Assembly (NCBI RefSeq): GCF_004322705.1 | Contig: NZ_SIZZ01000002.1 | Coordinates: 620,001 to 684,000, forward strand | Source: Dyella terrae | Lineage (GTDB): Bacteria; Pseudomonadota; Gammaproteobacteria; Xanthomonadales; Rhodanobacteraceae | Direction of reading: 5' to 3' | Length of the DNA stretch: 64,000 bases | In this document: piece by piece, positions 29,570 through 46,891 of the stretch | Layout: each line of letters opens with the position of its first letter | Position numbering within the stretch: the stretch's first letter is position 1 | The notes under the pieces: generated by a model | Databases searched by the model: none | What the model saw: only the letters and a program-made list of their open reading frames with translations | What the model was told of the DNA's origin: nothing | Position numbers and translations under genes: made by a program

Positions 29570-29597
29570 GTTGGGGCGAGTCATTCAGGGAGGGAGC

Positions 29598-30077: not shown

Positions 30078-30167
30078 GACGCGCCGCAGGGCCGTGAAAT
30101 ACGCAACGAGGTCGTCTACGATGCACGCCCGGCTGCCACGTGGTCGCTGCACATCCTGCGCCTTGCC

Positions 30168-30383: not shown

Positions 30384-30459
30384 TTTTTTTGTTGGGCACC
30401 GATCCGTTTCGGCTCCCCGCATCGTCCTTGGTGTGCCTCTCTCAAGAAGGAGCCACGCC

Positions 30460-30789
30460 ATGTCCACCCAAGCCATCACCCTGATCAACGTCCTCAAGGT
30501 CGAGCCGGAGCATCAGGCCGAGCTGATCGATCTCCTCAAGCAGAACATCGACAACGTCATCAGCACGCTCGGCGGCTGGAGGGCGAGCCGGTTGATTGCA
30601 GCCGCGGATGGTCGCAGCGTGGTCATTCATTCGGAATGGGAAACGCCCGCAGCGGTGGACGCCATGCGGGCCGATCCCCGGATGCAGGCTTACTTTCCGC
30701 GCATCCGGGCCCTGGCCCAGTTCGAGTCGGTTGCCGGTGGCGAGGTGTTCTCGCGGCGTTCGACCGCTCGCGATACTGTGTCGGCATGA
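30460..30789 (+). CDS. Antibiotic biosynthesis monooxygenase (ABM) domain protein
   Basis: A 109-residue ferredoxin-like alpha/beta barrel protein. The strand-helix pattern TLINVLKVEPEHQAELIDLLKQN ... VVIHSEWETPAAVDAMRADP is typical of ABM-domain proteins, small dimeric enzymes acting on quinone-like or polyketide-like compounds, or on haem. AAGAAGGAGC upstream supports the start at 30460. The stop codon overlaps the start of the sigma factor gene by four bases (ATGA), so the two are translationally coupled; the ABM protein may be a target or sensor partner of that sigma factor. Confidence 0.8.
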   Translation: MSTQAITLINVLKVEPEHQAELIDLLKQNIDNVISTLGGWRASRLIAAADGRSVVIHSEWETPAAVDAMRADPRMQAYFPRIRALAQFESVAGGEVFSRRSTARDTVSA

Positions 30790-31679: not shown

Positions 31680-31793
31680 ACAGCAAGGTAAAGGATGAGC
31701 CCGCTTCACTCATCGAGCCGGTTTTCTTGTCATCGCCACGACAAGGCTTGCCTCAGGGTACGAGTCTCGTAGTTCCGGCAGGTGATGGGCTTG

Positions 31794-32354
31794 ATGCACA
31801 AACGGCGACAGCTTCTTTTTGTTCAGGGTGGTGGGAAAGGCGCGCATGACGCGTGGGACGACCGCCTTGTCGACAGTCTTGGCTGGGAGCTGGGCCCGGC
31901 ATGGTCCATTCACTACCCGCGCATGCCCGACGAGGACGACCCGACCTATGGCGCGTGGAAACCCGCGCTGGAGCGCGTAATGGACGAACTGCCCAAAGGC
32001 TCGGTCCTGATCGGCCATTCCGTCGGCGGCACCGTGCTGATGAAGCTGCTGGCCGAACACCATGCGCGCAAGCCGGGCGCCATCGTGCTGCTGGCGCCGG
32101 CGTTCGTAGGCGACGGAGGCTGGTCCAGCGATGATCTGGAGGTGCCACCAGACATAGGCGCCCGCCTGCCCAAGGGCGTGCCCATCCACATTTTCCAGGG
32201 CATGGCCGATGACGTGGTGCCGCCGGCCCACGTGGATCTCTATGCGCGAGCGGTGCCACAGGCCCACATCCATCGCCTGCCGGGCCGCGACCATCAGCTC
32301 AATCAGGACTTACAGGAAGTAGCGGAAGAAATCCGCTCGCTGTCGGTGCATTAG
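31794..32354 (+). CDS. Alpha/beta hydrolase (RBBP9/YdeN-like)
   Basis: A 186-residue small serine hydrolase. The nucleophile elbow is IGHSVGGTV, with a later Asp in MADDVVPPAH and His in GRDHQLN, giving a complete triad. An early LFVQGGGKGAHDAW strand-loop supplies the oxyanion region. The substrate is unknown. In-frame starts at 31782 (GTG) and 31785 (ATG) are also possible; 31794 has the best-spaced purine-rich site. It is a single gene between the sigma factor and TPR genes. Confidence 0.8.
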   Translation: MHKRRQLLFVQGGGKGAHDAWDDRLVDSLGWELGPAWSIHYPRMPDEDDPTYGAWKPALERVMDELPKGSVLIGHSVGGTVLMKLLAEHHARKPGAIVLLAPAFVGDGGWSSDDLEVPPDIGARLPKGVPIHIFQGMADDVVPPAHVDLYARAVPQAHIHRLPGRDHQLNQDLQEVAEEIRSLSVH

Positions 32355-32436
32355 TTGCCCGGGGATAGGCCGTTTGACTGACCGCCGCATGCGCCCCGCC
32401 GGTGCACAATGCGCGGGATGCTTCAGGGAGGTGGCC

Positions 32437-33960
32437 ATGTCACGTCTGATACCGGTCCTTTGGGGCCTTGTATTCGCAAGCACGGCCGTCCTAGCGGACG
32501 AGATGCACGACCACGGCGTGCCGGAAAAGCTGGGGCAGGTGTCCTTCCCCATCTCCTGCAAGCCTGGCGTGCAGCAGCCGTTCAATCGCGCCGTCGCACT
32601 ACTGCATTCCTTTGCCTACAAGGCCGCCGACGAGGCCTTCCACCAAGTCGCCGAGGCCGATCCCGCATGCGCCATGGCGTACTGGGGCATGGCCATGGTG
32701 CAGTTCCATCCCGTGTGGCAACCGAGCTTGCCGGCCGAGACCTTTGCCGAGGCGCAGCAGCACGCCCTGCAAGCCGAGCACCTCGGCGCGAAGACCGATC
32801 GCGAACGGGATTTCATTCACGCCGCAGCGGTGCTCTACCAGTCCAACGATGGCATGAAGAGCGATCAGCGCACGCAGGCTTATGAACAGGCCATGGCAAC
32901 CGTCGCCAAGGACCAGCCCAAGGATGTCGAAGCGCAAGTCTTCTACGCACTTTCCATGCTGGCCAACGCCTCACCCACCGATCGCACACACGCCAAGCAA
33001 AAGCAGGCCATCGATATCCTTGAGCCGCTCTATCGCACCCACCCCAATCATCCCGGCCTCGCGCACTACCTGATCCACGCTTGCGACAGCGCCGAACTGG
33101 CACAGCGCGGACTACCCGCCGCCCGCATGTACGCACGCATCGCCCCATCCGCACCCCATGCGCTGCATATGCCATCGCACATCTTCACGCGCCTTGGCCT
33201 GTGGGACGACTCCATAAAGTCGAACATCGCCTCCAAGAACGCCGCGCACGCACAAAACGACAGCATGGGCGAGCTCCATGCCATGGACTATCTGGTGTAC
33301 GCCTATCTCCAGGAAGGCAAGGACACCGACGCACAGCGCATCGTTGATGAAGCCAAAGGCATGCAGTCCCTCGATATGAATAACTTCGCCGTGGCGTACG
33401 CCGTTACCGTCATGCCGATTCGCATGGCGGTGGAGCGAGGGCGATGGGATGATGCCGCACATGCAGCCGCGCCTGATGGCGTCCCGCCGTCGGTCATCGC
33501 CATTGCCGTATGGTCAAAGGGGATGGGTCTGGCTCGCACGGGAAACGCGCAGGGCGCACGGGCGCAGGTGGACCAGCTCCGTGTCATCGAAAAAACGCTG
33601 CACGATTCCGGCGACGACTATGGGTCCGCACAAACCGGCGTTCTGGCGGACGAAGTAAGCGCTTGGGTCGCGCAGTCGATGGGCAAGCCCGCGGACGCGG
33701 TAGAGATCCTGCGTGCCACGGCTGACCGCGAGGACGCCATTGAGAAGCGGCCTGTCACACCAGGCCCCGTATGGCCGGCCCGCGAGCAGTTGGGGGACCT
33801 CTTGTTGGCGCAAGGCAATCCGAAAGAGGCATTAGTGGCGTACAGAAATGCCCTCGCGGTTGCGCCCGGGCGCAGGCATGGGATGGAAGGGGAGCGGAAA
33901 GCGTCAGGCTCAATATCCAAGTCGGTGCCCGCTGGCCCTTCCGCTGCCTTGCAGCTTTAG
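32437..33960 (+). CDS. Secreted TPR protein of unknown function
   Basis: A 507-residue protein with a signal peptide (LIPVLWGLVFASTAVLA) and several TPR-like repeats. Notable are FNRAVALLHSFAYKAADEAFHQVAEADPACAMAYWGMAM near the start and HLIHACD-like YLIHACDSAEL in the middle, which resemble a family of secreted TPR proteins often annotated only as hypothetical. AGGGAGG upstream supports the start. The last ~25 residues are low in TPR character and end only 8 bases from the T4SS virD4 stop codon, so the natural C-terminus may have been altered when the T4SS locus arrived. Confidence 0.78.
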   Translation: MSRLIPVLWGLVFASTAVLADEMHDHGVPEKLGQVSFPISCKPGVQQPFNRAVALLHSFAYKAADEAFHQVAEADPACAMAYWGMAMVQFHPVWQPSLPAETFAEAQQHALQAEHLGAKTDRERDFIHAAAVLYQSNDGMKSDQRTQAYEQAMATVAKDQPKDVEAQVFYALSMLANASPTDRTHAKQKQAIDILEPLYRTHPNHPGLAHYLIHACDSAELAQRGLPAARMYARIAPSAPHALHMPSHIFTRLGLWDDSIKSNIASKNAAHAQNDSMGELHAMDYLVYAYLQEGKDTDAQRIVDEAKGMQSLDMNNFAVAYAVTVMPIRMAVERGRWDDAAHAAAPDGVPPSVIAIAVWSKGMGLARTGNAQGARAQVDQLRVIEKTLHDSGDDYGSAQTGVLADEVSAWVAQSMGKPADAVEILRATADREDAIEKRPVTPGPVWPAREQLGDLLLAQGNPKEALVAYRNALAVAPGRRHGMEGERKASGSISKSVPAGPSAALQL

Positions 33961-33968: not shown

Positions 33969-35657
33969 TCAAATCTCAAGGCGGGGGACTTCAATCTTTG
34001 GAAAGACACGTGAACTGAAGTGGCTGTCCTCGTAGTACCGGATCTTCTTGCAGAGAATGGCGTTCTCCAGGCCCTCGAGGAAAATGATGCTGTTCTTGGG
34101 GCTCATGGCTTTGATTTCCTGCGGAAGCATGAGGGCTCTACGCTCGTCGCTGGCGCTACGTGTCCGGTCGCGCCACTTTCTTCCTCGCGTCACGCTCGAT
34201 CGCCTTACCGTGGTGTAACCAAGCATTTCAGAGTACTCCTGAGCGTCTTGTTGCTCACGTGGCGTGAACACGATCTGGGCGGCGTGATTGGTAATCAATG
34301 TTCTGGCCACGTCCTTTCCGTAGGTGGCGCTGAGTTGCGACATGCTTTGTATGATGGGGAATAGTCGTAAGTTGTATCCAGCCATGTACGATACGGCGGA
34401 TGCGACGATATCGATCCTCCCAATTGAGGTGAACTCGTCCATCAGAAGGAGACATTGATGGCGCAGTTCAGAGTTCGACTGCGGAAGCTCTTTTGTGTTC
34501 TGCTGGATCAACTGACTGAAGAATAGATTGAGAATGAGCTTCGCCTCGGCCAGCCGATTGGGCTGGATGCCCACGTAGATCGTCATGGGCACCTTTCGAA
34601 CATCTGTCAGTAGAAAATCATCCGCGCTTGTCGCTGCGTCGACGGTTGGATTGATCCATGCATTCAGTGGCTCCTTGAACGTGCCCATGACTGAGGCAAA
34701 GGTCTCATCGGCAAGTCCAAGCAAATTTGAAAAGGCGATCTGGCTCGCATCGCTTAGCCACGTCTTCGATGAGAGTGTCAGTATGTGCGCCCTCAGGTCC
34801 GTGGCATCTCTGCCGCTGGACAGACGATAAATTCGCCCAAGCGTTGGGGTGTCGCGCAAGTCAGACGCGAGACCCATGGCCACCTCACCATCGTACTTTT
34901 CGAAGAGAAAGAGCGTGAAAGCCATGAAGGCGTTTCTTGCCTGGCTTACCCAGAATTTATGATCGTCTGAAACATCCGGATAAAGCGTTGCTGCGATGGT
35001 CATTAGGTCGGAGACCCGGAAGGAGGGTTCCGCTGACACGTAGCTCAACGGGTTCCAGCGCCGGGTGCACCTGTCTTCTGCAAACGGATTGAATAGATGG
35101 ATCTTCTGCCCCTGAAGTGCGCGCCAGCCGCTCGTCAGTTCGAAATTCTCAAGCTTGATATCCAGGACGACTACGGAATCCTGATAGTCGAGCAAATTGG
35201 GAATGACAATGCCGACGCCCTTCCCTGACCGTGTTGGAGCCGCAAGTATGGCGAAACGCTGTCCCGACATTCGGATCAGCCGATTTCGGGCCTTTCCCAG
35301 GATGAGGCCCTTCCTGGAATGACTGACTAAGCCTTGTGCTCGGATCTCCCTCCACCCAGCGAAACGCGCGCTGCCGTGCAGCGCGGCTCGCTTTCCGCGC
35401 CAAAGGAATCCTGCGAGTACCAGCGCCAGGGTGGTACTGATCCCGAGGCCCACTAGCCCGGCGCCGATAACGCTGGCACCCATCGAGGGGGTTGGCATCG
35501 GGGAGCCGCGCAGCGATGCAAGCGTGTAGTAACCGAGCATGCGATCGGGTAATTCCACTCCGGATCCCATGCTTAGAATGTAACCAGCGGCGATCTCCCC
35601 AATGAGCAAAGATACGCCTGCTACCACAAATGTGGCTGCAATCCTCCATTTTTGCAT
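33969..35657 (-). CDS. virD4: T4SS coupling protein VirD4
   Basis: A 562-residue inner-membrane ATPase that recruits substrates to the type IV secretion channel. It has two N-terminal membrane helices (about residues 7-28 and 61-85), Walker A APTRSGKG (141-147), a Walker B-like LLLMDEFTSIG near residue 400, and FTPREQQDAQEYSEMLG, all typical of VirD4/TraG. In X-type systems VirD4 binds the XVIPCD domain of effectors. It is the last gene of the twelve-gene minus-strand locus and converges on the TPR gene with an 8-base gap. It is separated from virB6 by 192 bases without a visible gene. Confidence 0.93.
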   Translation of the reverse strand: MQKWRIAATFVVAGVSLLIGEIAAGYILSMGSGVELPDRMLGYYTLASLRGSPMPTPSMGASVIGAGLVGLGISTTLALVLAGFLWRGKRAALHGSARFAGWREIRAQGLVSHSRKGLILGKARNRLIRMSGQRFAILAAPTRSGKGVGIVIPNLLDYQDSVVVLDIKLENFELTSGWRALQGQKIHLFNPFAEDRCTRRWNPLSYVSAEPSFRVSDLMTIAATLYPDVSDDHKFWVSQARNAFMAFTLFLFEKYDGEVAMGLASDLRDTPTLGRIYRLSSGRDATDLRAHILTLSSKTWLSDASQIAFSNLLGLADETFASVMGTFKEPLNAWINPTVDAATSADDFLLTDVRKVPMTIYVGIQPNRLAEAKLILNLFFSQLIQQNTKELPQSNSELRHQCLLLMDEFTSIGRIDIVASAVSYMAGYNLRLFPIIQSMSQLSATYGKDVARTLITNHAAQIVFTPREQQDAQEYSEMLGYTTVRRSSVTRGRKWRDRTRSASDERRALMLPQEIKAMSPKNSIIFLEGLENAILCKKIRYYEDSHFSSRVFPKIEVPRLEI

Positions 35658-35849
35658 TCGTGGACTCCATACTGCTTGTTGCTTCTCACAGGGGGCTTTA
35701 AGGCCGCGCTCTCCTTCGTCGATGGGGTGCGAAGGTTCGCTCCTCGGGCTGGAGGAAACGTTTCATGAATCATGTGAAGCTGGTTGAATGCCGGGTCAAC
35801 CCATGTGGCGCAAGTGCTTCTCCGGCAGTGTCTTTTGACGATGCGAAAC

Positions 35850-36983
35850 TTACGCGCGACCCATCCGATCCGTCTTTATAACGTCAAGGTCGCCTGGGTT
35901 TTCTCCGGTTACAGATACCCTCGTAGCTGTCTGCAACTGCACTCCGGGGTCGGGGGTTGATCGAGGACTTGCAGGTTCGTCGTGCATGGCGCCTCCGTCC
36001 CGAGTCGGAGTCCCGTGCCCATAGGGCTGTCCCGAATGGGGTGTGGAACCTGCATTCAGTCCATGAGGCCTCGGCGAGGTGCCGCTGTGAAATGCCGAGT
36101 GGGCCATGAAGTGGCCGAGTGTTCCCTGAAAGAACATGGCTGCCATCGGAGGCACAGAAATGACTAGTACCGTCAGAAGCACGCCGATGCCACCTTGCTG
36201 CATGGCCTGGAATGTCAGGCTCTCGCTATCGATCTTAAGAAACCAGCCGGCGACCTTGGCGAGCCAGAATGCCTCTCCTACGCGATAGGTCAGCTTCAAG
36301 ACGATGTTGCAAACCACGCTCAAGAGCGCCATCGAGAAAAGGGTCCCTATGCCGTACAAAAGCCATCTTCGAAAGAGCTCCTTCGATTGTTCGAACAGTA
36401 GGCAAAGAATGAACAATGGACCCAAGCCAATGAACAGGCTGATGCCGAACTGATAGAGCAGAAGCATCGCAGCCGCCGCCATCGGGGGGGCCGCAGTGCC
36501 GACCGTTGCCATTGCAATGGCGCGCTCCTTGAGGGAGTGCGCCTCAGCATCTCCTGATGTCACCTGGATGCCCGAAATGATCGAAATGGCGACCTGCGTC
36601 AACGCCAGGGTCTTGTCTATGGAGTCGGCTGTGCCCGAGTTGCGCTTCCCGGTAAAGGCGTAGTGAATCTCCTTATCCAAGCCAACGGTCAGCCAGGATT
36701 GGAGGTCGGTTCCTGCTACTGCCATGGTTGACGATGCGGCGACAACCACCGTGTTTCGTGCGAGCCCCATGACAACGCCCATGATGGGCTCACGAGATCC
36801 GCCCGAGAGGATGCGAAACCCTCGTTGCATAATCCAAAGGGTCAGTAGGCTGAGGGCAGCAGCACTTGCCCATGCGGCAAACCTCCGCATCAATCCATTG
36901 CCAAAATCATCAATCTCGTCGCGGAGAAACTGATAGATCAGGGCGAAGTAGGCAAAATCACCAAAGTCGTCAGGCATGGGCAT
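35850..36983 (-). CDS. virB6: T4SS inner-membrane protein VirB6
   Basis: A 377-residue polytopic protein, part of the inner-membrane platform. It has several hydrophobic helices (for example ASAAALSLLTLWIMQ and MAAAAMLLLYQFGISLFIGLGPLFILCLLFEQSKELFRRWLLYG), the TrbL/VirB6 family pattern. The last ~80 residues are a hydrophilic, His/Gly/Pro-rich tail, a feature of VirB6 in these systems. It sits 36 bases downstream of virB5. Confidence 0.88.
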   Translation of the reverse strand: MPMPDDFGDFAYFALIYQFLRDEIDDFGNGLMRRFAAWASAAALSLLTLWIMQRGFRILSGGSREPIMGVVMGLARNTVVVAASSTMAVAGTDLQSWLTVGLDKEIHYAFTGKRNSGTADSIDKTLALTQVAISIISGIQVTSGDAEAHSLKERAIAMATVGTAAPPMAAAAMLLLYQFGISLFIGLGPLFILCLLFEQSKELFRRWLLYGIGTLFSMALLSVVCNIVLKLTYRVGEAFWLAKVAGWFLKIDSESLTFQAMQQGGIGVLLTVLVISVPPMAAMFFQGTLGHFMAHSAFHSGTSPRPHGLNAGSTPHSGQPYGHGTPTRDGGAMHDEPASPRSTPDPGVQLQTATRVSVTGENPGDLDVIKTDRMGRA

Positions 36984-37019
36984 GTAGTATTTGCTGGGAG
37001 CGGAACTGTGGATTGCCCA

Positions 37020-37784
37020 TCACTTATGGCTGAGTGCCGCCTTCAATGCGACGGCGCCGACGACCTTTCCCCAGGGGCCTTGACCTTGTAGCGCCTTGCG
37101 CGCGTAAACGCCCTGCATCTGTTCGAGCGTACGAATTTGCATCTCGCACTGCTGAACGTTGCTTTGCCATTGCTCGCGCGACTGGGAGATCTTGTTGGTT
37201 AGGCGCTCTATGTCAGCTGCAATCGCCTGAAGATTGCCAGGTGATTTACCAGCCTCATTGATCTGGCGACTCTCAAGCCCGTTAAGATCCTCCTTTGCCT
37301 GATCTAGGGCGGCGAGATACTCCACCGTGTCGTTGAACTGGCGATTCTTCGTCCTGACAATCCCTTCGCAAAGCCTCTGCTGCTCCGCTCTGATGTTGCC
37401 ATCATCCGCGCTTAGGACGCCATTTAGGATTCCAGTTACGTCTCCAAATGACGATGCATCTGACTGACATGACTCGCGAACGCCAAAGTCTTCATCAATT
37501 TTCTGAAATTCGTTTTTGAGCGTTAATTGCGCCAACTCTTTGGGGGCTAGCGTGACCAGCTGGAGCTTCCAGTGATCTATCTGTTCTTTCCATTGCTTAA
37601 GCTCTTTGCTCCAATGGAGGACCTGAGCGCCATGGCGGCTGGCTTGCGTGAAAAACTCGCTGGCCTGAAGCTTGGTGTGTAATGCATCAGTGACGACCCA
37701 TTGCGCATGCGCCGTCTGGGTCGACTGAATGGCGAAAGTTGAAATGATTGCCGCGAAAAGAATATGAAGGGGCTTCTTGCCCAT
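37020..37784 (-). CDS. virB5: T4SS pilus-associated protein VirB5
   Basis: A 254-residue secreted protein with a signal peptide (LHILFAAIISTFAIQSTQTAHA) followed by QWVVTDALHTKLQASEFFTQASRHGAQVLHWSKELKQWKEQI, a helical VirB5-like start. Further heptad-rich helices follow (about residues 150-220), with two or three cysteines. Position in the operon, size and helical content support VirB5, the minor pilus tip component; sequence conservation in this family is low. The start at 37784 has AAGGAA; the longer frame overlaps virB4. Confidence 0.8.
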   Translation of the reverse strand: MGKKPLHILFAAIISTFAIQSTQTAHAQWVVTDALHTKLQASEFFTQASRHGAQVLHWSKELKQWKEQIDHWKLQLVTLAPKELAQLTLKNEFQKIDEDFGVRESCQSDASSFGDVTGILNGVLSADDGNIRAEQQRLCEGIVRTKNRQFNDTVEYLAALDQAKEDLNGLESRQINEAGKSPGNLQAIAADIERLTNKISQSREQWQSNVQQCEMQIRTLEQMQGVYARKALQGQGPWGKVVGAVALKAALSHK

Positions 37785-37834
37785 ATGCTTGTTCCTTGTG
37801 TGGTGTGCGCTATTGGGCGGTAGAGAGTCGCCGC

Positions 37835-40249
37835 TCAACGACTTCCTTTCCGTCGTGCGTAGAACTTTGGAAGCCATTCATTGGTGGGCAGCATTTCGAT
37901 CGAGACGCCTTTGATGTCTGCTTCCTCTTTGAGGACGTCATGGAGAACCTCAATGTTGTCGGTGGAGCTCGATATCACTGACAGTGGGTCATGCAGGCCC
38001 CTCAGATTGAGCTGACATACGCTTGCGAAGTGGCCCTGCTTCACGAGGAATGCGCGTGAACGCTCGTCAAGACCGGTGACGACCTGGTATTCAGCTTCGG
38101 TGAGCTTCAAACCATTGATGTAGTCATGCCTGCTGGCATTCGGATTTGGCAAAAGAATCATCGTTGCAGTCTGCTCGATAAGTGCTGCAGCGATGTCGCT
38201 TGATAGTGCGTCTTCTGGACTCTGCGTGGCGAAAATCCCGAGGCCGTTCTGTTTGCGGATCGTTTTTTGCTTATTCTTCGCAAACTCTTTCAGGCCGCCG
38301 CCACCGTCAAGAATTTTCCAGAACTCGTCCATGACATAAATCAGGCGACGTCCGTCGATCAATCCTTCCAGTCGATGGAGGAGGTAATTGATCACTGGCG
38401 ATCGGGTCTCTGTGTTATCGATGAGATCCGTGTAGTCAAAGCCGATGATCTTGGCCTTGGTCAGATCAATGGTGTCTTCAGGGTTGTCGAATACCCAGCC
38501 CAGTGACTGACCTGAAGTCCACCGCTTTAGCCGTGTGTAGATGCCATCATCGCCAAGGTTGGGGAAGCTGTTCCGAAGATTGGCGAGACCTCTTAGGGGA
38601 ACGGGCGTATCCAGTATGGCCGCGACCGCGCGATGAATATCCTCTTCTTCTCTTGACGAGTAAGCGCTCTTTCCCGCGAGCTCCTTGATAAGAGCGGCAA
38701 GGAACTGGCGATTTGATGGTGTGTCGTCACAATGCAACGGGTTGAATCCCGTGGGCTTCCCATTCTCCAGCGCGAGATAGTTTCCGCCGCATGCTCTGAC
38801 AAAAATTTCGGCTCCACGATCCTTGTCAAAGAAGAAGATGGTGGGAACCGGTTCGAGCTTCTGAACCTGGCTGAGAAGAAAATTGATAAGAGCGGTCTTC
38901 CCGGTTCCGGACTTTCCGATGACGAGCGTATTTCCAATGGCCTTCTCGCCGAATGAGTTCTCGCCAGGGGACGTGGCGTGAAAGTTGAAGTAGTAGGGCT
39001 GTCCATTGGTTGTCTGTAGTGTTGTTACACACGGACCCCACGGATTGCCATCCTTCTTTCCGGAGGCAAAATTGTGCAGTGGTGAAAGGCCAAGGAAATT
39101 CAGGGAACTAACGTTTGCCAGGCGCGTCCGGTAACGCCAGTTCCCGGGCAGTTGTGCATAGAAGGCAGCCATCACGGCGATGTCCTCCTTAACGCTCACG
39201 AACCCCGCGTTGGACAGCTCCGCCCGCGCGGCCGCTAAGTTCTGCGAAAGGCGCTCTTGGGATTCTGCGTAAACTGCAAGATTGGAATGGTATTCGCCAA
39301 GGACAAAGTTCCCCGAAGCGAGTTGATCCATCGCATAGTCGAGCTCGCCGATCTGACTGACCGCTTTGTCTCCGGAGGAGATCATCATTCCCTTGGTTCG
39401 ATCCAGAGCCTTCAGTGCCTCATGACGACCCATCGGGCTGAATGAATGTGTGAGGACGTACTCGAAGCTGAGATACTTGAGGCCATTCAATATTCCGGGA
39501 AATGTGCCTTCCGGGTATTCCTTGATGTTAAGCATTGCGCCGTAGTCATGCCTCCCGTCGGGCTCAGTTATGACGAAATTTCCTGTGCTTGGCGAGCACC
39601 TGAATGTGCTCGTGGCAAGGTATGTGCGCGCAGGCGCGCTGAGAACAGGCACGGGCTCGCTGCTGCGGTTGATGATGTAACCGAACAGCTCGTAGATCTC
39701 CGAAAAGACGATGCCGCCGGCACCCTCATACAGGCCAAGTCGGGAAAGACTGTAGTCTTTCAGGCCGGCCTCGACACCCCCCGCAAGATCCAGGGAGGTG
39801 GATATGGCTTGTTCCTGAAAAGCGCGCAAGTTGTCTGCGCTCAGATTGCGACGCCGCCTTCTTCCCGCCACTACCTCAGGCCGGTAAATCATGGTTAGAA
39901 AGAGATCGTTGACCATGAGGCGCTGGCTTGAGAGAGTTTCAAAGTAGGCGTCGGAGAGCTCTTGATTAAATACGTGATTGAATCTTGAGTCGTCTCGCAG
40001 TCGTCCCTTTCGACGTATGTCGTGCACCCAGAATGCGACATTGTTGAAGTCAGGGGCCCGCAGCGATTGAATGAGACGGTTGAAGGTCGCGTGCCGGTGC
40101 TCGATCTCCCAATCTTCGCGCCCGATGAAAGGATAGCCATCCATACGCCAGCACATGACGTAGTCTCCTCCGTTAGTCCTGGCAACTGTCGGTGAGACAT
40201 GGCTGGAAAGGGGGATGTTGTCTCCAGGATATGCGTTGGGTTGGGGCAC
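37835..40249 (-). CDS. virB4: T4SS ATPase VirB4
   Basis: An 804-residue ATPase that powers assembly of the secretion machine at the inner membrane. Family segments include HATFNRLIQSL, GNTLVIGKSGTGKT (Walker A near residue 445), FFFDKDRGAEIFVRACGGNYLAL and IYVMDEFWKIL (Walker B). The predicted start is a GTG at 40249 with AAGG just upstream; no better ATG precedes it. It follows virB3 by about 40 bases. The length is typical of VirB4. Confidence 0.94.
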   Translation of the reverse strand: MPQPNAYPGDNIPLSSHVSPTVARTNGGDYVMCWRMDGYPFIGREDWEIEHRHATFNRLIQSLRAPDFNNVAFWVHDIRRKGRLRDDSRFNHVFNQELSDAYFETLSSQRLMVNDLFLTMIYRPEVVAGRRRRRNLSADNLRAFQEQAISTSLDLAGGVEAGLKDYSLSRLGLYEGAGGIVFSEIYELFGYIINRSSEPVPVLSAPARTYLATSTFRCSPSTGNFVITEPDGRHDYGAMLNIKEYPEGTFPGILNGLKYLSFEYVLTHSFSPMGRHEALKALDRTKGMMISSGDKAVSQIGELDYAMDQLASGNFVLGEYHSNLAVYAESQERLSQNLAAARAELSNAGFVSVKEDIAVMAAFYAQLPGNWRYRTRLANVSSLNFLGLSPLHNFASGKKDGNPWGPCVTTLQTTNGQPYYFNFHATSPGENSFGEKAIGNTLVIGKSGTGKTALINFLLSQVQKLEPVPTIFFFDKDRGAEIFVRACGGNYLALENGKPTGFNPLHCDDTPSNRQFLAALIKELAGKSAYSSREEEDIHRAVAAILDTPVPLRGLANLRNSFPNLGDDGIYTRLKRWTSGQSLGWVFDNPEDTIDLTKAKIIGFDYTDLIDNTETRSPVINYLLHRLEGLIDGRRLIYVMDEFWKILDGGGGLKEFAKNKQKTIRKQNGLGIFATQSPEDALSSDIAAALIEQTATMILLPNPNASRHDYINGLKLTEAEYQVVTGLDERSRAFLVKQGHFASVCQLNLRGLHDPLSVISSSTDNIEVLHDVLKEEADIKGVSIEMLPTNEWLPKFYARRKGSR

Positions 40250-40288
40250 GTCCTTGGCTCCGTGATATGACTTGAAATGCCTGAACGG

Positions 40289-40585
40289 TCAGGGCGTGAC
40301 TCGACCACCAAGGGGGCTTACTACCCACAGGCCCTCGTGAAGCGCGACATTGGACACGCCCATTCGGGTTTGGATGTGAAGCCCAAGGAGCCTGAAGATC
40401 ATTTCGTCGCGCTTGGCCATCTGTTGCATGGCAACGACGATGAATGGTCCGAAGATCAGCAGCGTCATGCTGACGTACATTGCCAACAGAAGGCACGATC
40501 CGGCTCCAAGAAAGAACGGAACATACGGGACGCCTAGAAACATGGGTGGCCTTGTGCAGCCGCGGAATAGGACGTTCTTACGCAT
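40289..40585 (-). CDS. virB3: T4SS inner-membrane protein VirB3
   Basis: A 98-residue protein with the VirB3 pattern: RKNVLFRGCTRPPMFLGVPYVPFFLGAGSCLLLAMY, that is, the short basic/Arg-Pro N-terminus followed by a hydrophobic hairpin. It associates with VirB4. The start ATGCGTAA overlaps the virB2 stop codon, supporting this shorter start over the frame from 40645. Confidence 0.9.
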   Translation of the reverse strand: MRKNVLFRGCTRPPMFLGVPYVPFFLGAGSCLLLAMYVSMTLLIFGPFIVVAMQQMAKRDEMIFRLLGLHIQTRMGVSNVALHEGLWVVSPLGGRVTP

Positions 40586-40949
40586 ACGAACGAAGCGCCG
40601 AGATGACCATGGCCGCGCATTGTTCTGCGGATCCTTCCTCTCCAATAAGCATTTTGGCGACCTGAGCCGCTGCGCCGATAAGCATCCCTCCTATCAATAT
40701 GGGTGCGACGTCGCTGATTCGTTTGTGCGCAAATGCGATCTGATAGCCCGATAAGATGATCGCGATGGTGACAACGGTCACCGAAGCCAAATTGAGGATA
40801 TTGTTGACGTTGCTAAAGAAGCCGCAGACTTTTTGATCGGCACCGGCCAAGCCGTCTGCCAATGCGATGTCCGGTAGCACAGTTGCGGCGCAAGCGATTC
40901 CTGTCCATGCGAGGAGCTGAAATGTCGTCAGGCGTTCTACTGATTTCAT
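40578..40949 (-). CDS. virB2: T4SS major pilin VirB2
   Basis: A 123-residue prepilin with a long signal sequence (TTFQLLAWTGIACAATVLPDIALA) and two hydrophobic helices in the mature part (NILNLASVTVVTIAIILSGYQIAFA and APILIGGMLIGAAAQVAKMLIG) separated by a short basic loop, HKRISD. This is the VirB2 arrangement. In-frame ATGs at 40997 and 40961 are alternatives; none has a clearly superior ribosome binding site. It overlaps virB3 at its end. Confidence 0.88.
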   Translation of the reverse strand: MKSVERLTTFQLLAWTGIACAATVLPDIALADGLAGADQKVCGFFSNVNNILNLASVTVVTIAIILSGYQIAFAHKRISDVAPILIGGMLIGAAAQVAKMLIGEEGSAEQCAAMVISALRSYA

Positions 40950-41015
40950 TGGTATGGCCATCCTTGGTTGTGCGTTAGCGAATTTGAGTGGTTTCAAACT
41001 GTTGGGTGTTGGGTG

Positions 41016-41771
41016 TCAGAACACAAAAGCGCCGTCTCCATCCTCGCGACCTGACCCACTCCCGATAAACGTCGGCGTGACAACTGACGGACCGTGCGCG
41101 GCCTTTGGGGTGTGGCTTCCCGGAACGCTGGGACTTTGCCTTGCCTGTGACCCAGCATCTTGGTTGCTGGCGTCAAATGAGGGCGAAAGCGCGGCCGCCT
41201 CTTGACGCCCAGTGGCGCGGGCCTGGTCGAGGCGCTTGATGAGATCATCCATCTCCTGGGAATCAACCTGTTCGGGGGAAGTTGATTCCTGAAATTTCCC
41301 ATCCTTCTTGCGTCGAGCCCATGCGGGCGCGCGTGCGGTGCCTCGCATTGACGTCAGTACCTTGCCCACATACCCGTGGCGAAAGCCTGTCGTGAAGTTT
41401 CCTGAGTAGTAGCAACTGATGGCCTTCGGCCAATCACCATCTGCTCTCGTCCGGCACTGTTCGAGTACGCTTGATCCTGCGCGAAGATTGGTGCACGGAT
41501 CGAACGCATCGGCAGGAGTGGCGATTGCGTAGGCGGCAAAGTTTGATTTGTTGAGTTGCGCCAGGCCAAGGGAGTAGTTTCGGCCTGTTCGTTCAAGCAT
41601 GTCGGCGGTGCTTACTGCTTCGCCGAGGTTTTTAGGCTGACGAACCAGGTGTCCGCCGACTACACCAATGGCGTAGGGATTGTAATTCGACTCCACTCGG
41701 ACAATGTGGTGCATGACTCGCGCGGTCTCGGGTGAGACACCGCAGCTTGAAATATCGAGAACAGGTATCAC
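41016..41771 (-). CDS. virB1: T4SS lytic transglycosylase VirB1
   Basis: A 251-residue murein-cleaving protein with an SLT domain in its first ~150 residues. The catalytic Glu27 lies in HHIVRVESNYNPYAIG, with SLGLAQLNKSNF and ISCYYSGNFTTGF following. A long hydrophilic Ser/Pro/Gly-rich tail ends in AFVF. It opens the peptidoglycan for the secretion channel. No conventional signal peptide is visible, as in some VirB1 proteins. The start overlaps the virB11 stop by four bases (ATGA). Confidence 0.92.
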   Translation of the reverse strand: MIPVLDISSCGVSPETARVMHHIVRVESNYNPYAIGVVGGHLVRQPKNLGEAVSTADMLERTGRNYSLGLAQLNKSNFAAYAIATPADAFDPCTNLRAGSSVLEQCRTRADGDWPKAISCYYSGNFTTGFRHGYVGKVLTSMRGTARAPAWARRKKDGKFQESTSPEQVDSQEMDDLIKRLDQARATGRQEAAALSPSFDASNQDAGSQARQSPSVPGSHTPKAAHGPSVVTPTFIGSGSGREDGDGAFVF

Positions 41772-42826
41772 GAGTGCTTCCTCACTATTTCATGATCCGA
41801 AGCACCCGGAGGCCGGAAGTCGATATCGGTGATTCTTCGCTTTCCCTGATGGGAAGCGATATGGACCACAATGTCGATCGTCATTTTCAGAAGGTCCTTG
41901 ATGGTGTTGAATTCGAGACCCGATCCTTCTGCGGACGCCTTGATCATCAGTGCTAGCTGATCCCAGGCCTGCTCTGCGCTACCCGCGTGACAGCTAGTGA
42001 TCGACCCGGGATGGCCCGACGCACAATTGCGTATAAAGAAAAAGGACTCGTCACCCCGAAGCTCCGCAAGGAGGATCCTGTCGGGCTTCATGCGTAGACA
42101 GGCTTCCATGCAGGTCTTGGCGGTTACGTTGCTGTCGCTCTGCCCCCCTTTGGAGTAGAGCAGGTGAACAACATTGGGCTGTTGCAGAAAGAGCTCCCGC
42201 GCATCTTCGATGGTTATCAGGCGCTCGTGTGACGGGATCTGGCTTACCAGGGCCTTCATGAAAGTTGTCTTGCCGCTTCCTGTAGCCCCAGCGACAACTA
42301 CATTCTTTCTGCATGAAACAGCCGCCTTGAAGAACTCAGCGTATCTACCATCTGACTTGAGCTCCAGCATGCGTACATCTTCCGGAGGCATGACCGATTG
42401 TCGATCGGCAAGCTCGCTGAAGAATCCATCGCGTTCATAGTCGCAAAGTGAGCGCGATGTCCTTGAAGGTAGTCTGATCGTAATCGACAAAGTGCCTGAT
42501 TCGCAGGCTGGAGGAATGACGAACTGGGCGCGTTGACCAGTGGGGAAGGTGAGGGAAACGACGGGATCCATCGTTGTAATTCGCTGGCCTGTGTGGCTCT
42601 CGTTCACGACAGCGGTGCAGAACTGGAGTGCGCGTTCGAGTGTCAATGTTGGTGCAGGATGACATTGCCATATGCCGTTTCGTTCGACATAGATCTGGCC
42701 GGGTTTATTGACACATATCTCAGTTACGTCAGGACATTCCATCAGCTCCGCTATGCCAAGCGCAGCGTACTGATGTTGAAGGAATGGGTTTGTAGCGAGT
42801 TTGTGCATGGATGGAATGACGATCAA
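41768..42826 (-). CDS. virB11: T4SS ATPase VirB11
   Basis: A 352-residue hexameric ATPase of the secretion ATPase family, cytoplasmic at the base of the channel. An N-terminal domain (TEICVNKPGQIYVER) is followed by Walker A GATGSGKTT (180-188), the Asp box TIEDARELF, Walker B RILLAELRGDESF and a His box SGHPGSITSCHA. The length is typical. It is linked to virB10 upstream and virB1 downstream by four-base overlaps, so the three should be translated together. Confidence 0.95.
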   Translation of the reverse strand: MIVIPSMHKLATNPFLQHQYAALGIAELMECPDVTEICVNKPGQIYVERNGIWQCHPAPTLTLERALQFCTAVVNESHTGQRITTMDPVVSLTFPTGQRAQFVIPPACESGTLSITIRLPSRTSRSLCDYERDGFFSELADRQSVMPPEDVRMLELKSDGRYAEFFKAAVSCRKNVVVAGATGSGKTTFMKALVSQIPSHERLITIEDARELFLQQPNVVHLLYSKGGQSDSNVTAKTCMEACLRMKPDRILLAELRGDESFFFIRNCASGHPGSITSCHAGSAEQAWDQLALMIKASAEGSGLEFNTIKDLLKMTIDIVVHIASHQGKRRITDIDFRPPGASDHEIVRKHS

Positions 42827-44022
42827 TGCGCTTTAATGGTTTGGCTGAAGTCGACATCTTTCGCAACGAAGATGCTTACGATCGTGCCTTGGTTGATGGT
42901 GACGGTGGCTGGCCGGTTGGCCGCACGTCGAACTGCCTGCTTTGCGATGTTTTGGATGGTTTCCGCCGTATTACTCTCGAACGGGTCTTGCGTGACGATT
43001 CCGCTGCTGGTGCTCGTCTGTGTGGGGCCATATTTGGCGCCTGCGTATTTGAAGGCGTCACTGAAGATGCTGATCCAAAGCGCTGCGGAGATTCGACTTC
43101 CCCAGTGGGCGGAATAGTGACCCGGGTGGCCTGCGCTACCAAGATTGTCAACGCCGGGACTTTCCATGTCGATGTTCACTCCATTGGGAGTAATGGCGCG
43201 CTCCCAGATGACGCCAATTCTTCCTGAGTCGGGTTCGGCGTCGTACTGACCCATTACTTTGGTGCCTTTGGGTAATAGGAGATGCTTACCCGTGAACGAG
43301 TAGACTGGCTCTGTCACCACGCAAGAAGCAAAGCCGGGGTGGTCGGTGATGATCCGAGTTTGAAGTGCGCACCGTATGGAAGTGCCTTGGGCCATCAAGG
43401 TGTCTTTCTGTTCGAGGGCGTAGGCCTTATCGGGTTGGCCGGCTGCGGCTTTGCGGACGCCGGCGCCAAGCGAACTGACAAGTGCATTCGCGGCCGACGG
43501 TTCGGAAATAGCGCCGGGTATGCCGCCGGGTATGCCGACCCCTGGCAGGATGCCGGTGTCTCCCGCTTGCTTTCTGCGTTCAAGGAGAGATTCCCGCTCT
43601 GCGTTCGGCTTAGGAATCAAAGCAAGTTGTGGTGAAGTGGGCTCTCGAGATGTCGGTAAATTGGCCAGAGGGATAGGTGCAGATGGCTGCGATCGGACGG
43701 TACTCGTCCGGATGGGTTTACTCGGTGCAGCGGGTACAGTAACTAGCTCCTCTGGGTTTCGCGTCGGCTCTTTCCCTCCACGGGAGCCAATCGCGCCAAA
43801 TAGCAGCGCAGTGGTGGTGGCCAGAAGGGTTGCGATGGCAGCCATCATCAAAATGGGGCGCGCGCCGCGGCCCTCCGCGGAAAGCGTACTCAAGCGAGGT
43901 GCTGCTTCTTCGAGATTGGGATGTGAGGAGGGAGGGGTGGCCTTTACGCCATCGTCGGGATTGCCTTTGCCTGGTGACTGTGTGCTTTCATTTTGGCGTT
44001 CGTATGGATTCTGTTCGTTCAC
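42823..44022 (-). CDS. virB10: T4SS core complex protein VirB10
   Basis: A 399-residue protein that spans both membranes. It has a hydrophilic cytoplasmic N-terminus, a membrane helix (about 56-78), a Pro/Thr-rich periplasmic linker, and a C-terminal TrbI/VirB10 domain with LMAQGTSIRCALQTRIITDHPGFASCVV and LLPKGTKVMGQYD. The antenna region is near SRISAALWISIFSDAF. It joins VirB7 and VirB9 in the outer-membrane core. Four-base overlaps link it with virB9 and virB11. Confidence 0.94.
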   Translation of the reverse strand: MNEQNPYERQNESTQSPGKGNPDDGVKATPPSSHPNLEEAAPRLSTLSAEGRGARPILMMAAIATLLATTTALLFGAIGSRGGKEPTRNPEELVTVPAAPSKPIRTSTVRSQPSAPIPLANLPTSREPTSPQLALIPKPNAERESLLERRKQAGDTGILPGVGIPGGIPGAISEPSAANALVSSLGAGVRKAAAGQPDKAYALEQKDTLMAQGTSIRCALQTRIITDHPGFASCVVTEPVYSFTGKHLLLPKGTKVMGQYDAEPDSGRIGVIWERAITPNGVNIDMESPGVDNLGSAGHPGHYSAHWGSRISAALWISIFSDAFKYAGAKYGPTQTSTSSGIVTQDPFESNTAETIQNIAKQAVRRAANRPATVTINQGTIVSIFVAKDVDFSQTIKAH

Positions 44023-44792
44023 TTCGTGGCATTCCTTCGAATGCCTACGACGCGCCGGCCATGTCTAATGATCAGATAGGGGTAGGTGCCGTGGACGACG
44101 ATAGTGTCGCCAGAGACGCTTGTATTGATCATGGACTCTTCTCCGTGCGCCTTCTCTCTCGCGAAAATGGCTGGGAAGTCTCCTGAGGGGGAGCCAGGGT
44201 GCCGCGCCATGCGTAGATACGTGAATCGACCGTCGTCGTACGCGTTGACCGGTATCAACCATGGGTGGGTGCGGTCGTGGGTCGAATAGTCGTAGTTGAA
44301 GTTGTAGCGACGTTCCTTCAGAAGATCAGTGCTCAATTCAGGGGGCGCGATCGTCTCCTGCCGGTCTTGAGCGGGGTCAGCCGCGATTTCAGCAGCATCG
44401 GGCGGGGTCACGATGACCCGATATTGAACGCCCCTCTTTTTGGCCTGTTCAATCGTTTTCCAGTCAGTTGCTACCACCTTGAGTTCAAAGATGTAGGTGC
44501 GCGACTCCGTTCGTACGATCAGATTGGTGTCAACGTCTACGTCTTTGGGGCGTACGTAGAAGACATTGTCCCTCCGGGACAGGCTCCAGCCGCTGCTGAA
44601 TCCGCTGCTGAAATCAAGAACCTTTTCGTGCTTGTCGAGCTCGACCTGAGTTGTGATGCCGAGACCTGTGCGCACTTCCATGACTTTGTCTCGCTCAAAG
44701 CCAAGTCGGCTCACGGCGTCTGCGTGTGCATCCACTGTCAGCATTCCGGAAAGAAGGGTGAGGTAGGCGAAAGCTGAGTAGTGCCTCTTCAT
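44019..44792 (-). CDS. virB9: T4SS core complex protein VirB9
   Basis: A 257-residue periplasmic protein with a signal peptide (YSAFAYLTLLSGMLTVDAHA), an N-terminal domain with FSSGFSSGWSLSRRDNVFYVRPKD and ELKVVATDWKT, and a C-terminal domain containing RRYNFNYDYS and TYPYLIIRHGRRVVGIRR, the family signature that binds VirB7. An in-frame ATG at 44867 overlaps the virB8 stop (ATGA) and would add a 25-residue N-region; I chose 44792 because the signal peptide is then regular, but coupling argues for the other start. Confidence 0.92.
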   Translation of the reverse strand: MKRHYSAFAYLTLLSGMLTVDAHADAVSRLGFERDKVMEVRTGLGITTQVELDKHEKVLDFSSGFSSGWSLSRRDNVFYVRPKDVDVDTNLIVRTESRTYIFELKVVATDWKTIEQAKKRGVQYRVIVTPPDAAEIAADPAQDRQETIAPPELSTDLLKERRYNFNYDYSTHDRTHPWLIPVNAYDDGRFTYLRMARHPGSPSGDFPAIFAREKAHGEESMINTSVSGDTIVVHGTYPYLIIRHGRRVVGIRRNATK

Positions 44793-44863
44793 TCGGTGGA
44801 TGCATGAAGGGCCATTGATGCGGCCTGGGCGAATTGAGAGTGAGTGGTTGTGAGCGAGGCATG

Positions 44864-45631
44864 TCATGATGTGGTCTCTTCGATGGCATGACTTTCTCCC
44901 GGTTTGACGCTCTCGCCGAAGTCATCGTCTATCCGGTAGTTCGAAACCTGGAATCCGAGCGGATTCTCAACACGATCCCGTTCATCCATTTTCAATCCAG
45001 GCTTGTAGGAATAAGTCAGGGTAGCGATCTTGCCGTCCAGCAAGACGGACGTCCCGGAAGACTTGGCATATACCGATCGTTGGAATCTAACCGTTGCGCC
45101 GGTGGGCGCTTTGTTGGTTGCGCTACTGTGAAGCACGATGCTCAGGATCCGGACCCGGAGAGCTCGTTCCTTTCCGTACACGACGTACGGACTATCAGGA
45201 TTACTGTCGGCGTAGATTGCGCGATAGGCGGAGGCGACTCCTGGCGACGACATGACGAAAACTGTCTTCCAGTCACGCATGCGCATGATGGCCTCGTCGT
45301 AGGACTCGCGAGCCATGACGTAACGGGCAATGTGGCTGCGATTGACGGCCTCGCTGGTCGTGATCTGGCCGAGCGTGCGATCATCAGCGAGCCGTGAAAC
45401 GGTGGATGTTCCGGTGTATGCGTCGGCCATAACCAGGAAGGGTGTCTTTTCCTTAAGTGGAATGACAAAGATATATCCGCCTGCGAGAACCACCGTGGCG
45501 ACCATCGCTGCCGAAGCAACCCACCATGCGCGGCGCTCGCTCCTTCGGGACATTTCTTCGAGCGTCACCTCGAAATTGATCCCGCGTTTGACGGTCTCTT
45601 CCACTCTCGTTGAGTTTTTGTTCTTGTGCAT
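44864..45631 (-). CDS. virB8: T4SS inner-membrane protein VirB8
   Basis: A 255-residue bitopic protein: cytoplasmic N-terminus, one membrane helix (about 36-57), and a periplasmic NTF2-like domain. SPYVVYGKERALRVRILSIVL and the late NPLGFQVSNYRIDDDF are conserved VirB8 segments. It links the inner-membrane ATPases to the core complex. virB7 precedes it by 32 bases. Confidence 0.93.
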   Translation of the reverse strand: MHKNKNSTRVEETVKRGINFEVTLEEMSRRSERRAWWVASAAMVATVVLAGGYIFVIPLKEKTPFLVMADAYTGTSTVSRLADDRTLGQITTSEAVNRSHIARYVMARESYDEAIMRMRDWKTVFVMSSPGVASAYRAIYADSNPDSPYVVYGKERALRVRILSIVLHSSATNKAPTGATVRFQRSVYAKSSGTSVLLDGKIATLTYSYKPGLKMDERDRVENPLGFQVSNYRIDDDFGESVKPGESHAIEETTS

Positions 45632-45663
45632 TGTTTTGCGCAGGTTGTCTGGAGGTTTCTTCT

Positions 45664-46167
45664 TCAGGCGCCGTTGTTGCCGGTGCCGGTATTGCCTGAC
45701 GTGGTTGATTCAGATGGCGGGTTCGCGCTGCGTACGACAATGCGAAGCGGCTCAATGTCGACCCGGATGCCTTGTGGAAGGTAGATGCGGTTCAATTCAT
45801 CGGCAGCGCGTGTGATATCGGTGGTGTGAATGCGGCTGACTGGCTGATGGAGCGTGAAATCTTCTGCGACGCCGTAGTCGAGTCGCCGGCCGCTGTCTTT
45901 AGCCCATCGCAGCAGGAGATGGGTCAACGTGGTATCTAGCGGTGATGCGAAGTAGACGTAGGCAGGGTCGATCGGTATGCCCGTGGTGCTTCTTGCGTAA
46001 TGATTGATGGGCTTCCACCGGCCGCCATAATCAGGCGCCCTTGGCGGTCCGCATGCGGCGAGGGCGGCGAACACGATGGCGAGAAGCGTGTGTCGAAATG
46101 CGCCGCGGCCTGGTTCCGGCCGGACACATCTCCATGCGGATGACACAAGTTGGATCGCACAGGTCAT
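45664..46167 (-). CDS. virB7: T4SS lipoprotein VirB7 with C-terminal N0-like domain
   Basis: A 167-residue outer-membrane lipoprotein. The lipobox is LAAC with the lipidated Cys39, followed by the short VirB7 region (about 45-75). Residues about 78-150 (LTHLLLRWAKDSGRRLDYGV ... DELNRIYLPQGIRVDIEPLRIVVR) have the alternating helix-strand layout of an N0/STN domain, as in Xanthomonas VirB7; ordinary VirB7 lacks this and is under 60 residues. The tail is Ser/Gly/Asn-rich. The ATG at 46167 has GGAG with 5-base spacing. It is the first gene of the T4SS locus. Confidence 0.85.
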   Translation of the reverse strand: MTCAIQLVSSAWRCVRPEPGRGAFRHTLLAIVFAALAACGPPRAPDYGGRWKPINHYARSTTGIPIDPAYVYFASPLDTTLTHLLLRWAKDSGRRLDYGVAEDFTLHQPVSRIHTTDITRAADELNRIYLPQGIRVDIEPLRIVVRSANPPSESTTSGNTGTGNNGA

Positions 46168-46531
46168 GTTGTCTCCGGGCGAGCGAGTCCGTACCGCTGA
46201 TTTCATCAGCGATTTCGGGATTGAGTGGTCGGTGGTGAGCGATCACAGCGTGATCGGCTGCCTGGCGAAGGAATTGCAGCGGTGCCGTTTTGAGCGGTGC
46301 TGATGGCCTTCGCGACGAGTGCAAATGGTCCGCGAGTTGCGCATTGGGAACAACCCCGATCGGCCCGACTTTCGCCCCGGCTTGTGATCAGGGCATTCAG
46401 TCAGTGCGTGTAGTCCTATTACCGTGGCACCCGCGGTGGGGGTGTTCGTCAACCCACGACGCATGATGACAATGCGGATGCTCGTTTGGCGCTGCGACTC
46501 GTGGGAATGCTGCTCCCAAAAGGCCGCGTCC
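46168..46531 (-). promoter_or_regulatory. Intergenic region before the T4SS locus
   Basis: These 364 bases between yraN and virB7 hold no convincing gene (a 100-codon minus-strand frame here has no start signal or protein character). The region must contain any dedicated promoter for the T4SS operon. A TTGACG at about 46445-46450 on the minus strand is a candidate -35 box, but no -10 box lies at the right distance. No direct repeats marking an insertion end were found by eye. Confidence 0.35.
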
Positions 46532-46891
46532 TCAAACCTGCTCAAACGCGGAGCGGTACCATGTCATTTGAGCGGACTCAAAAGGGCCGTCGTGCGCAAC
46601 GACATCGAAACGGCACGGCGCATGGACGTAACGCGAATGGGTCGCGAGCCAAAGCTGTGCTGCTGCAATCAGCTTTCGTTGCTTGGGCGCTGTTACCGAT
46701 GCGGCAGCCCCACCTTGCGTGGCGCGCAGTCGATGCCTCACTTCCACGAAGACGATGGATTCATCATCTCGCATGACGAGATCGATCTCGCCAAAGCGCG
46801 TCGTGTAGTTGCGTTCGATCAGTTGAAGCCCGGCGCGCTGCAATTCCTTGCAAGCGCGCTCTTCAAAAAGTGCTCCTGCTGCCCGCATCAA
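46532..46891 (-). CDS. yraN: UPF0102 family endonuclease-like protein YraN
   Basis: A 119-residue small protein with a restriction-endonuclease-like core: FEERACKELQRAGLQLIERNYTTRFGEIDLVMRDDESIVFVEVRHR, containing the E-D-ExK-like set (EIDLV and VEVR). YraN is widespread; its cellular role is not settled. Its start overlaps the lpoA stop by four bases, and the lpoA-yraN pair is the standard neighbourhood in gammaproteobacteria. Confidence 0.92.
   Translation of the reverse strand: MMRAAGALFEERACKELQRAGLQLIERNYTTRFGEIDLVMRDDESIVFVEVRHRLRATQGGAAASVTAPKQRKLIAAAQLWLATHSRYVHAPCRFDVVAHDGPFESAQMTWYRSAFEQV

Follow-up and report, generated by a model that had tools for sequence, protein, structure and literature searches.

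Xanthomonadales-type type IV secretion systems (X-T4SSs) are portrayed as delivering a whole mixture of effectors (PMC7286519; PMC6759196). The account of the family in PMC6536674 gives four criteria for them, namely a chromosomal location, a VirB7 with a C-terminal N0 domain, twelve class A subunits and XVIPCD effectors in the same genome. It also names as distinguishing features a [T/S]EIPL motif in VirB7, a P[S/T]Lh[E/D/Q]RRh helix in VirB10, a cysteine pair in VirB5 and an AQGP-rich C-terminal extension, through which VirB8 reaches 290-370 amino acids and whose role is given as unknown. TfcB, an effector with which the type IV secretion system (T4SS) of Stenotrophomonas maltophilia kills bacteria (PMC11253643), and the X-T4SS effector (X-Tfe) XAC2609 (PMC10933484) are precedents for an exported peptidoglycan hydrolase paired with a protective protein. 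Here we analyzed a locus of Dyella terrae in a stretch of 64,000 nucleotides (the window; contig NZ_SIZZ01000002.1, positions 620,001 to 684,000), which an earlier note had read as a complete X-T4SS that probably kills bacteria. Judged by its sequence, the locus is an X-T4SS on all four published criteria. It varies on the known kind in having a repertoire of one recognizable effector, a tailless VirB8 and strong divergence of the apparatus genes. We consider it probable that this is a chromosomal system standing at a genus-wide locus of Dyella and devoted to antibacterial export with a single recognizable weapon.

Membership of the X-T4SS family

The locus consists of twelve frames on the minus strand, all of them open, which are transcribed in the order virB7-8-9-10-11-1-2-3-4-5-6-virD4 (33969-46206), as the earlier note had described. 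It is chromosomal: on a contig of 1.06 Mb it lies beside yraN, lpoA and rsmI, then mraZ, mraW, ftsL, ftsI and the mur genes, and the system occupies the same place on the yraN/lpoA/rsmI side in all five other Dyella genomes compared (G001-G005, hereafter the congeners). VirB7 (45664..46206) is an outer-membrane lipoprotein with an N0 domain, which matched three solved structures in phmmer searches (6gyb_a, E 4.7e-30; 2l4w, 4.6e-27; 3ov5, 5.7e-16). The first of these is the VirB7 of the solved X. citri core complex; the match to 3ov5, which we take to be a structure of the VirB7 N0 domain, spans the C-terminal domain of the window protein. All twelve subunits could be assigned, VirB5 on weak support, and ten of the frames have a Pfam match, VirB7 and VirB5 having no Pfam family. 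Moreover, the genome encodes one XVIPCD protein, at 81.1 bits against a cut-off of 24.9.

This assignment was borne out by VirB4. X-type VirB4 proteins were found in 70 of 233 genomes of the family and are 69-75% identical to the window protein over their full length, whereas the next group reaches 39-42%; the 70 include one partial VirB4 (76%; G175, cut by a contig end) and one split into two frames (67 and 75%; G061). The top-ranked plasmid VirB4 is 42.1% identical, and all were below 60% among the best 5000 plasmid records. By these identities (the tree was built without conjugative rows), the window VirB4 stands among those of X-T4SSs and far from conjugative-type ones; placement with conjugative VirB systems was what the earlier note had named as refuting its reading. 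Several statements of that note were confirmed. Walker-type motifs are present in its three ATPases (GKSGTGKT and YVMDEFW in VirB4, GATGSGKTT in VirB11, APTRSGKGVG in VirD4). Core, pilin and transglycosylase were recovered, VirB7 by solved structures and VirB9, VirB10, VirB2 and VirB1 by Pfam, and no integrase or relaxase matched among the 60 window frames scanned with Pfam (some small frames were left unscanned). Identities of VirD4 to its X-T4SS counterparts, one from each congener and a second copy from G005, are 58-62%. VirB5 has a signal-like N-terminus and is 26-27% identical to the VirB5 of four congeners (no frame matched in G003); its cysteine pair, read from the sequence, has 32 residues between the two cysteines, within the X-T4SS spacing of 11-33.

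Other loci of the family showed variation in VirB4 itself. Two X-type virB4 genes each were seen in G100, G118, G121 and G122, the pair of G100 lying near both ends of a single contig. The two frames of the split virB4 of G061 (C1:4259695-4262095) overlap; that genome encodes four XVIPCD proteins.

The single effector and its partner gene

The XVIPCD protein of the window genome has 449 amino acids and combines a GH19 domain (PF00182), a PG_binding_1 domain (PF01471) and a C-terminal XVIPCD (PF20410); a lytic N-terminal domain followed by this C-terminal domain is the arrangement expected of an X-Tfe. Along most of its sequence it shares 37-39% identity with effectors encoded within the loci of G004 and G005. 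Its best match among solved structures is TfcB (7r6s; E 1.1e-33, both domains), and in this alignment two GH19 glutamates fall at matching positions. The gene lies 610 kb from virD4, whereas an XVIPCD gene is found within 7 kb of virB4 in G077, G084, G193, G197, G200 and G202. The earlier note had made its reading depend on XVIPCD proteins being encoded in the genome; they are not absent, although exactly one is present. No second one was found with a 24-sequence XVIPCD profile at E values up to 10. Effectors overlooked by the search were rejected as an explanation on this ground, the same profile having matched at E ≤1e-3 in 16 of 19 other genomes (all but G083, G152 and G175). An assembly gap is unlikely as well, because the genome comes in 9 contigs at a completeness of 100. 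PF20410 gave a median of 6 XVIPCD proteins for the 70 X-type genomes; three of them have none and eight, the window genome included, have one. Since 11 of 70 genomes thus have no or one such protein, an X-T4SS should not be taken to imply a complete set of killing effectors.

A frame of 277 amino acids ends 3 bp upstream of the effector gene, and its product is a candidate immunity protein for the effector; XAC2610 is an immunity gene described in PMC10933484. It has a weak signal-like N-terminus, no Pfam family within the cut-off and no convincing match to a solved structure. Homologues were found in 17 other genomes of the family (E ≤0.01), with no congener among them. At seven of the 11 non-self loci the homologue stands beside an XVIPCD protein (L229-L232, L234, L236, L237); it has no adjoining one in L233, L235, L238 and L239 (a 12-bit match in L235 was left uncounted). 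Six of the seven partner-linked effectors resemble the window effector in the GH19 half, over 48 residues only in L230 (a short open frame) and over 140 in L236; the effector of L237 does not resemble it there.

Both flanks of the effector/partner pair (L055, 9037-9821 and 12194-12655) hold many short repeats of an intergenic repeat family, whose translation reads HAGESRHP/MPAKAGIQ; this family is possibly linked to the arrival of the pair at the site. XVIPCD matches were also seen in genomes without an X-type VirB4 (G021, matched no better than E 7.1e-4, G074, G080, G088, G164, G169 and G182); they may be remnants or point to a different role for the domain.

In the congeners, effector genes are found at the locus itself. 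Between virB6 and virD4 there are three XVIPCD genes in G001, G002 and G003 and four in G004 and G005, together with genes for small secreted proteins (seen in the two congeners inspected gene by gene). This block is absent from the window, where 192 bp (35658..35849) separate the two genes. Among 80 named loci, 19 have a virB6-virD4 distance of 3.7-9.9 kb with 1-5 XVIPCD frames inside; these are loci with a same-strand virB6 upstream of virD4 within the stretch compared, some congeners being re-included, while in the other 61 virD4 is elsewhere or virB6 outside that stretch. In genus g11, all four genomes have about 0.6-1.9 kb between match ends and no XVIPCD there. The difference may reflect a loss in the window lineage or a gain in the other five Dyella.

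A working model follows from the family. VirB7, VirB9 and VirB10 would form the core channel, VirB2 and VirB5 the pilus, and VirB3, VirB4, VirB6, VirB8 and VirB11 the inner-membrane engine. VirD4 would recruit the effector from the cytoplasm via its C-terminal XVIPCD and send it by way of the channel into a Gram-negative neighbor in contact with the producer. There the GH19 effector, encoded 0.61 Mb away, would cut the peptidoglycan of the target, while the product of the upstream gene would protect the producer. Assembly, secretion, killing and immunity are our inferences. The bacteria-killing reading is plausible, but a usual X-T4SS would give it a firmer basis: here one effector stands against 6-8 in the congeners, and the apparatus is strongly diverged.

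Divergence of the apparatus and competing explanations

Several observations weigh against an ordinary antibacterial X-T4SS. The genome holds one XVIPCD protein by PF20410, against 6, 6, 8, 7 and 8 in the five congeners. VirB7 has TGIPID at the position of the [T/S]EIPL motif; this motif is not strict, since its exact form occurs in 35 of the 65 frames read as VirB7, among which there may be a few wrong ones. The VirB10 helix reads ESLLERRK, while the motif is present in 54 of 63 proteins (last residue not scored). VirB8 has 255 amino acids and lacks the extension: counted from NPLGF, its tail is 33 amino acids long, the shortest of 60, against 62-148 in the 59 others (3 of 63 distinct VirB8 proteins lack NPLGF and were excluded). 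A frameshifted tail was rejected, as the other frames past the stop hold no long AQGP-rich stretch. The window row is changed at 51 of the 786 columns that do not vary among the other 35 systems. Finally, the T4SSs of X. euvesicatoria are reported in PMC10432156 to cause no apparent lysis of other bacteria, the chromosomal cluster there being incomplete.

The divergence extends over most of the apparatus. In the following pairs of percent identities, the first value is the mean of the window to the congeners and the second that of congener group G001-G003 to G004-G005. Conserved subunits are far apart (VirB4 73.2/85.9, VirB11 71.3/89.6, VirD4 62.9/87.3, VirB9 57.3/80.0, VirB8 56.2/75.9), as are VirB7 (45.2/75.1), VirB3 (62.9/79.1), VirB1 (50.7/70.3), VirB10 (50.4/61.9) and VirB2 (53.2/60.4); VirB5 (24.7/28.7) and VirB6 (45.5/47.1) are variable everywhere. 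A generally fast genome was rejected as the cause, the five flanking genes being only slightly farther apart than among the congeners (LpoA 79.3/82.4, RsmI 80.9/83.7, three others 84.7-91.0/86.5-91.7). The window row has the longest end branch, 1.1-1.2 changes per column against at most 0.7, both in the VirB4 tree (51 rows from 53 sources, L143 and L145 having no usable VirB4) and in the six-protein tree (36 rows, G089 being too gappy). Private changes at conserved columns of the other 35 systems amount to 0-2.5% in 34 and to 4.3% in G083, a measure that is biased low wherever a near relative of the row was also included.

On our best reading, the apparatus is still under selection and has either evolved unusually fast in place or been replaced by that of an unsampled relative. 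It is not a neutral relic, because all twelve frames are open despite such an end branch and the ATPase motifs are kept. Evolution in place is slightly favored, because locus, gene order and neighbors are those of the genus.

Replacement at the same locus by the apparatus of an unsampled X-T4SS lineage of lower G+C content, without relaxed selection, competes with evolution in place only, and we give it a chance not far below even. Composition speaks for it. The vir genes have 52-60% G+C and a G+C content at third codon positions (GC3) of 0.58-0.67, whereas LpoA, RsmI and LysE have a GC3 of 0.83-0.86; for the six shared subunits, 55.4% contrasts with 64.8% in the rest of the stretch, a difference of about 9 points with fairly sharp edges, and with a GC3 of 0.63 they rank last among 27 systems (the next has 0.71). 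Several conserved subunits (VirB4, VirB7-11, VirD4) are about equally far from congeners and from other genera. The adjoining yraN (46532-46891, next to virB7) also has a low GC3 (about 0.60-0.61) and is 63-70% identical to its congener counterparts, against 73-80% across the two congener groups; the yraN of G005, however, is itself low, at 0.67. Forcing the window row together with all five congeners was 35.7 log units worse (p 0.043 in the approximately unbiased test, p-AU), but the five do not form one clade in the apparatus tree themselves, and grouping with G001-G003 (7.5 log units worse, p 0.275) was not rejected. Nor did a donor appear: no VirB4 exceeded 76%, the value of the partial one, among the 233 family genomes and 398 genomes sampled across the order (116 of them with a match at E 1e-150), the plasmid records remained lower still, and no direct repeats of at least 18 bases were found within 33.0-47.2 kb.

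A dying X-T4SS, which has lost its effector block and its killing and whose apparatus drifts with frames not yet broken, is unlikely in our estimation. The small repertoire would fit it, as would the longest branch of 36 systems, the changed invariant columns and the lowest GC3; the runner-up in changes, G083, lacks XVIPCD proteins altogether, and 30 kb of its locus gave no match to virD4. Private changes of at least 0.4% were found in 10 of 11 systems with at most three XVIPCDs against 1 of 16 with more. Simple pseudogene decay is nevertheless disfavored by the open frames and kept motifs: over about 11.5 kb and a branch that exceeds one change per column, drift without selection would presumably have introduced many stops, and the effector remains together with its recurring partner gene.

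Across the 27 systems compared, the number of XVIPCDs correlated negatively with private changes (Spearman -0.51, or -0.47 without the window genome; relatedness uncorrected). This sample was non-random, effector-poor systems having been chosen on purpose, and the cut-offs were set after seeing the data. Four to five independent pairs never pointed in the opposite direction, and the sign test was not significant (0.125-0.5). We put the correlation forward as a hypothesis, not as a result. A more speculative and rather doubtful extension is that constraint on an antibacterial machine depends on the size of its arsenal, so that loss of effectors would free the coupling protein, the core and the VirB8 tail and leave a single-cargo exporter. 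If this were true, the window Dyella would mark the extreme, and other Rhodanobacteraceae would provide milder cases that arose independently.

Export of cargo without XVIPCD, whether atypical effectors or proteins meant for a non-bacterial target, appears improbable. In its favor, PMC10989847 reports T4E-like (type IV effector-like) proteins without XVIPCD from L. enzymogenes and X. citri, which may or may not be exported by the T4SS, and the apparatus has been kept despite its small repertoire; there is, however, no candidate in the locus (a genome-wide search was not made), and the XVIPCD protein with its partner is a sufficient substrate. A conjugative system, which shares the general VirB/VirD4 architecture, is scarcely credible given the VirB7 N0 domain, the VirB4 identities, a chromosomal locus common to six species, the single match that VirD4 (E up to 0.001) and VirB4 (E up to 1e-100) each have genome-wide, and the failure to find in the genome the relaxase gene that the earlier note had named as telling against its reading (PF03432 and PF08751, 0 matches genome-wide, each control positive in 1 of 14; MobA/MobL and other families not searched).

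The subunits and comparison with known systems

The start of virB7 is at 46206 or at an in-frame ATG at 46167. On the same strand follow virB8 (44864..45631; PF04335, E 4.4e-44) and virB9 (44019..44867; PF03524, CagX, E 8.2e-45), for which a signal-like sequence suggests a start near 44792. The core channel protein VirB10 (42823..44022) matched PF03743 (TrbI, E 1.5e-51), its best solved chain being X. citri 6gyb_c (E 4.6e-80). The VirB11 ATPase (41768..42826) has the T2SSE family of Pfam and reached 414 bits with TIGR02788 (cut-off 250). The lytic transglycosylase VirB1 (41016..41771) matched PF01464 (SLT, E 2e-13), with no apparent signal peptide, and the VirB2 pilin (40578..40997) matched PF04956 (TrbC, E 1.3e-12). 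For virB3 (40289..40645; PF05101, E 5.7e-20), alignment with congener proteins, which begin at frame residue 21, points to a start near 40585. The VirB4 ATPase (37835..40249) has CagE_TrbE_VirB in Pfam and 702 bits with TIGR00929 (cut-off 643). The minor pilin VirB5 (37020..37877) was assigned by position, with neither a Pfam nor an NCBIfam match. VirB6 (35850..36983) matched PF04610 (TrbL, E 5.2e-21), and the coupling ATPase VirD4 (33969..35657) matched PF02534 (T4SS-DNA_transf, E 9.3e-104).

Between the LysE gene and virD4 (28109-33960) lie genes for a sigma-70/SnoaL protein and a TPR protein, a small alpha/beta-hydrolase-like frame and several unknown frames. This interval is partly particular to the window genome, since it measures about 5.9 kb here against about 1.5-4.1 kb in the five congeners. 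In other genomes, X-T4SS clusters without a virD4 match in 20-30 kb and without XVIPCD by PF20410 were seen in G083 (L204/L205) and G152 (L206), the latter with a 20-bit XVIPCD-like remnant after virB6. The second VirD4 of G005 (C17, L050/L051) is a stand-alone X-type protein, 58% identical to the window VirD4, which lies near a frame of about 1200 amino acids with a weaker XVIPCD and has no VirB match within 40 kb.

In the literature on type IV secretion combined with XVIPCD, Dyella or X-Tfe, the titles and opening lines of abstracts yielded no treatment of X-T4SSs with reduced effector sets, which is no proof of absence. A natural one-effector system would allow machine and cargo to be studied one to one, and would help to ask how small an arsenal can become while the machine is kept; the VirB8 tail, moreover, is naturally missing here.

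Compared with the X-T4SS of X. citri 306, to which the solved core 6gyb belongs and which gave the best solved matches for VirB7 and VirB10, the window locus shares the twelve subunits and the VirB7 N0 domain. The match in order and content with X. citri and Stenotrophomonas claimed by the earlier note is not exact: virD4 is at the opposite end, following virB6, whereas in most Xanthomonas it precedes virB7 (PMC6536674), and the locus encodes no effector. VirB8 has no counterpart to the 98-residue extension listed for X. citri in Table 2 of PMC6536674. XVIPCD proteins number one, against the 12 first identified in X. citri. The position of virD4 after virB6 recurs in other Dyella, Rhodanobacter and Lysobacter loci. 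The window effector resembles TfcB of S. maltophilia in that the GH19 and XVIPCD halves both align, but it alone has a PG_binding_1 domain between them. The systems of genus g11 (G092, G094, G095, G097) are similarly short between virB6 and virD4 and effector-poor, with 1-3 XVIPCDs per genome; unlike the window system, they have kept the VirB8 tail and have ordinary branch lengths, and their VirD4 is 45-49% identical to that of the window. The Dyella congeners, which include D. marensis, D. subtropica, Dyella sp. SG609 and Dyella sp. OK004, share place, gene order and subunits with the window (VirB5 of G003 being unmatched). In contrast to the window, they carry 3-4 XVIPCD genes in the virB6-virD4 block and 6-8 per genome, a VirB8 of 318-325 amino acids in four (the fifth is a 387-residue frame with its match from residue 66) against 255, and a GC3 of the shared vir genes of 0.79-0.92 against 0.63.

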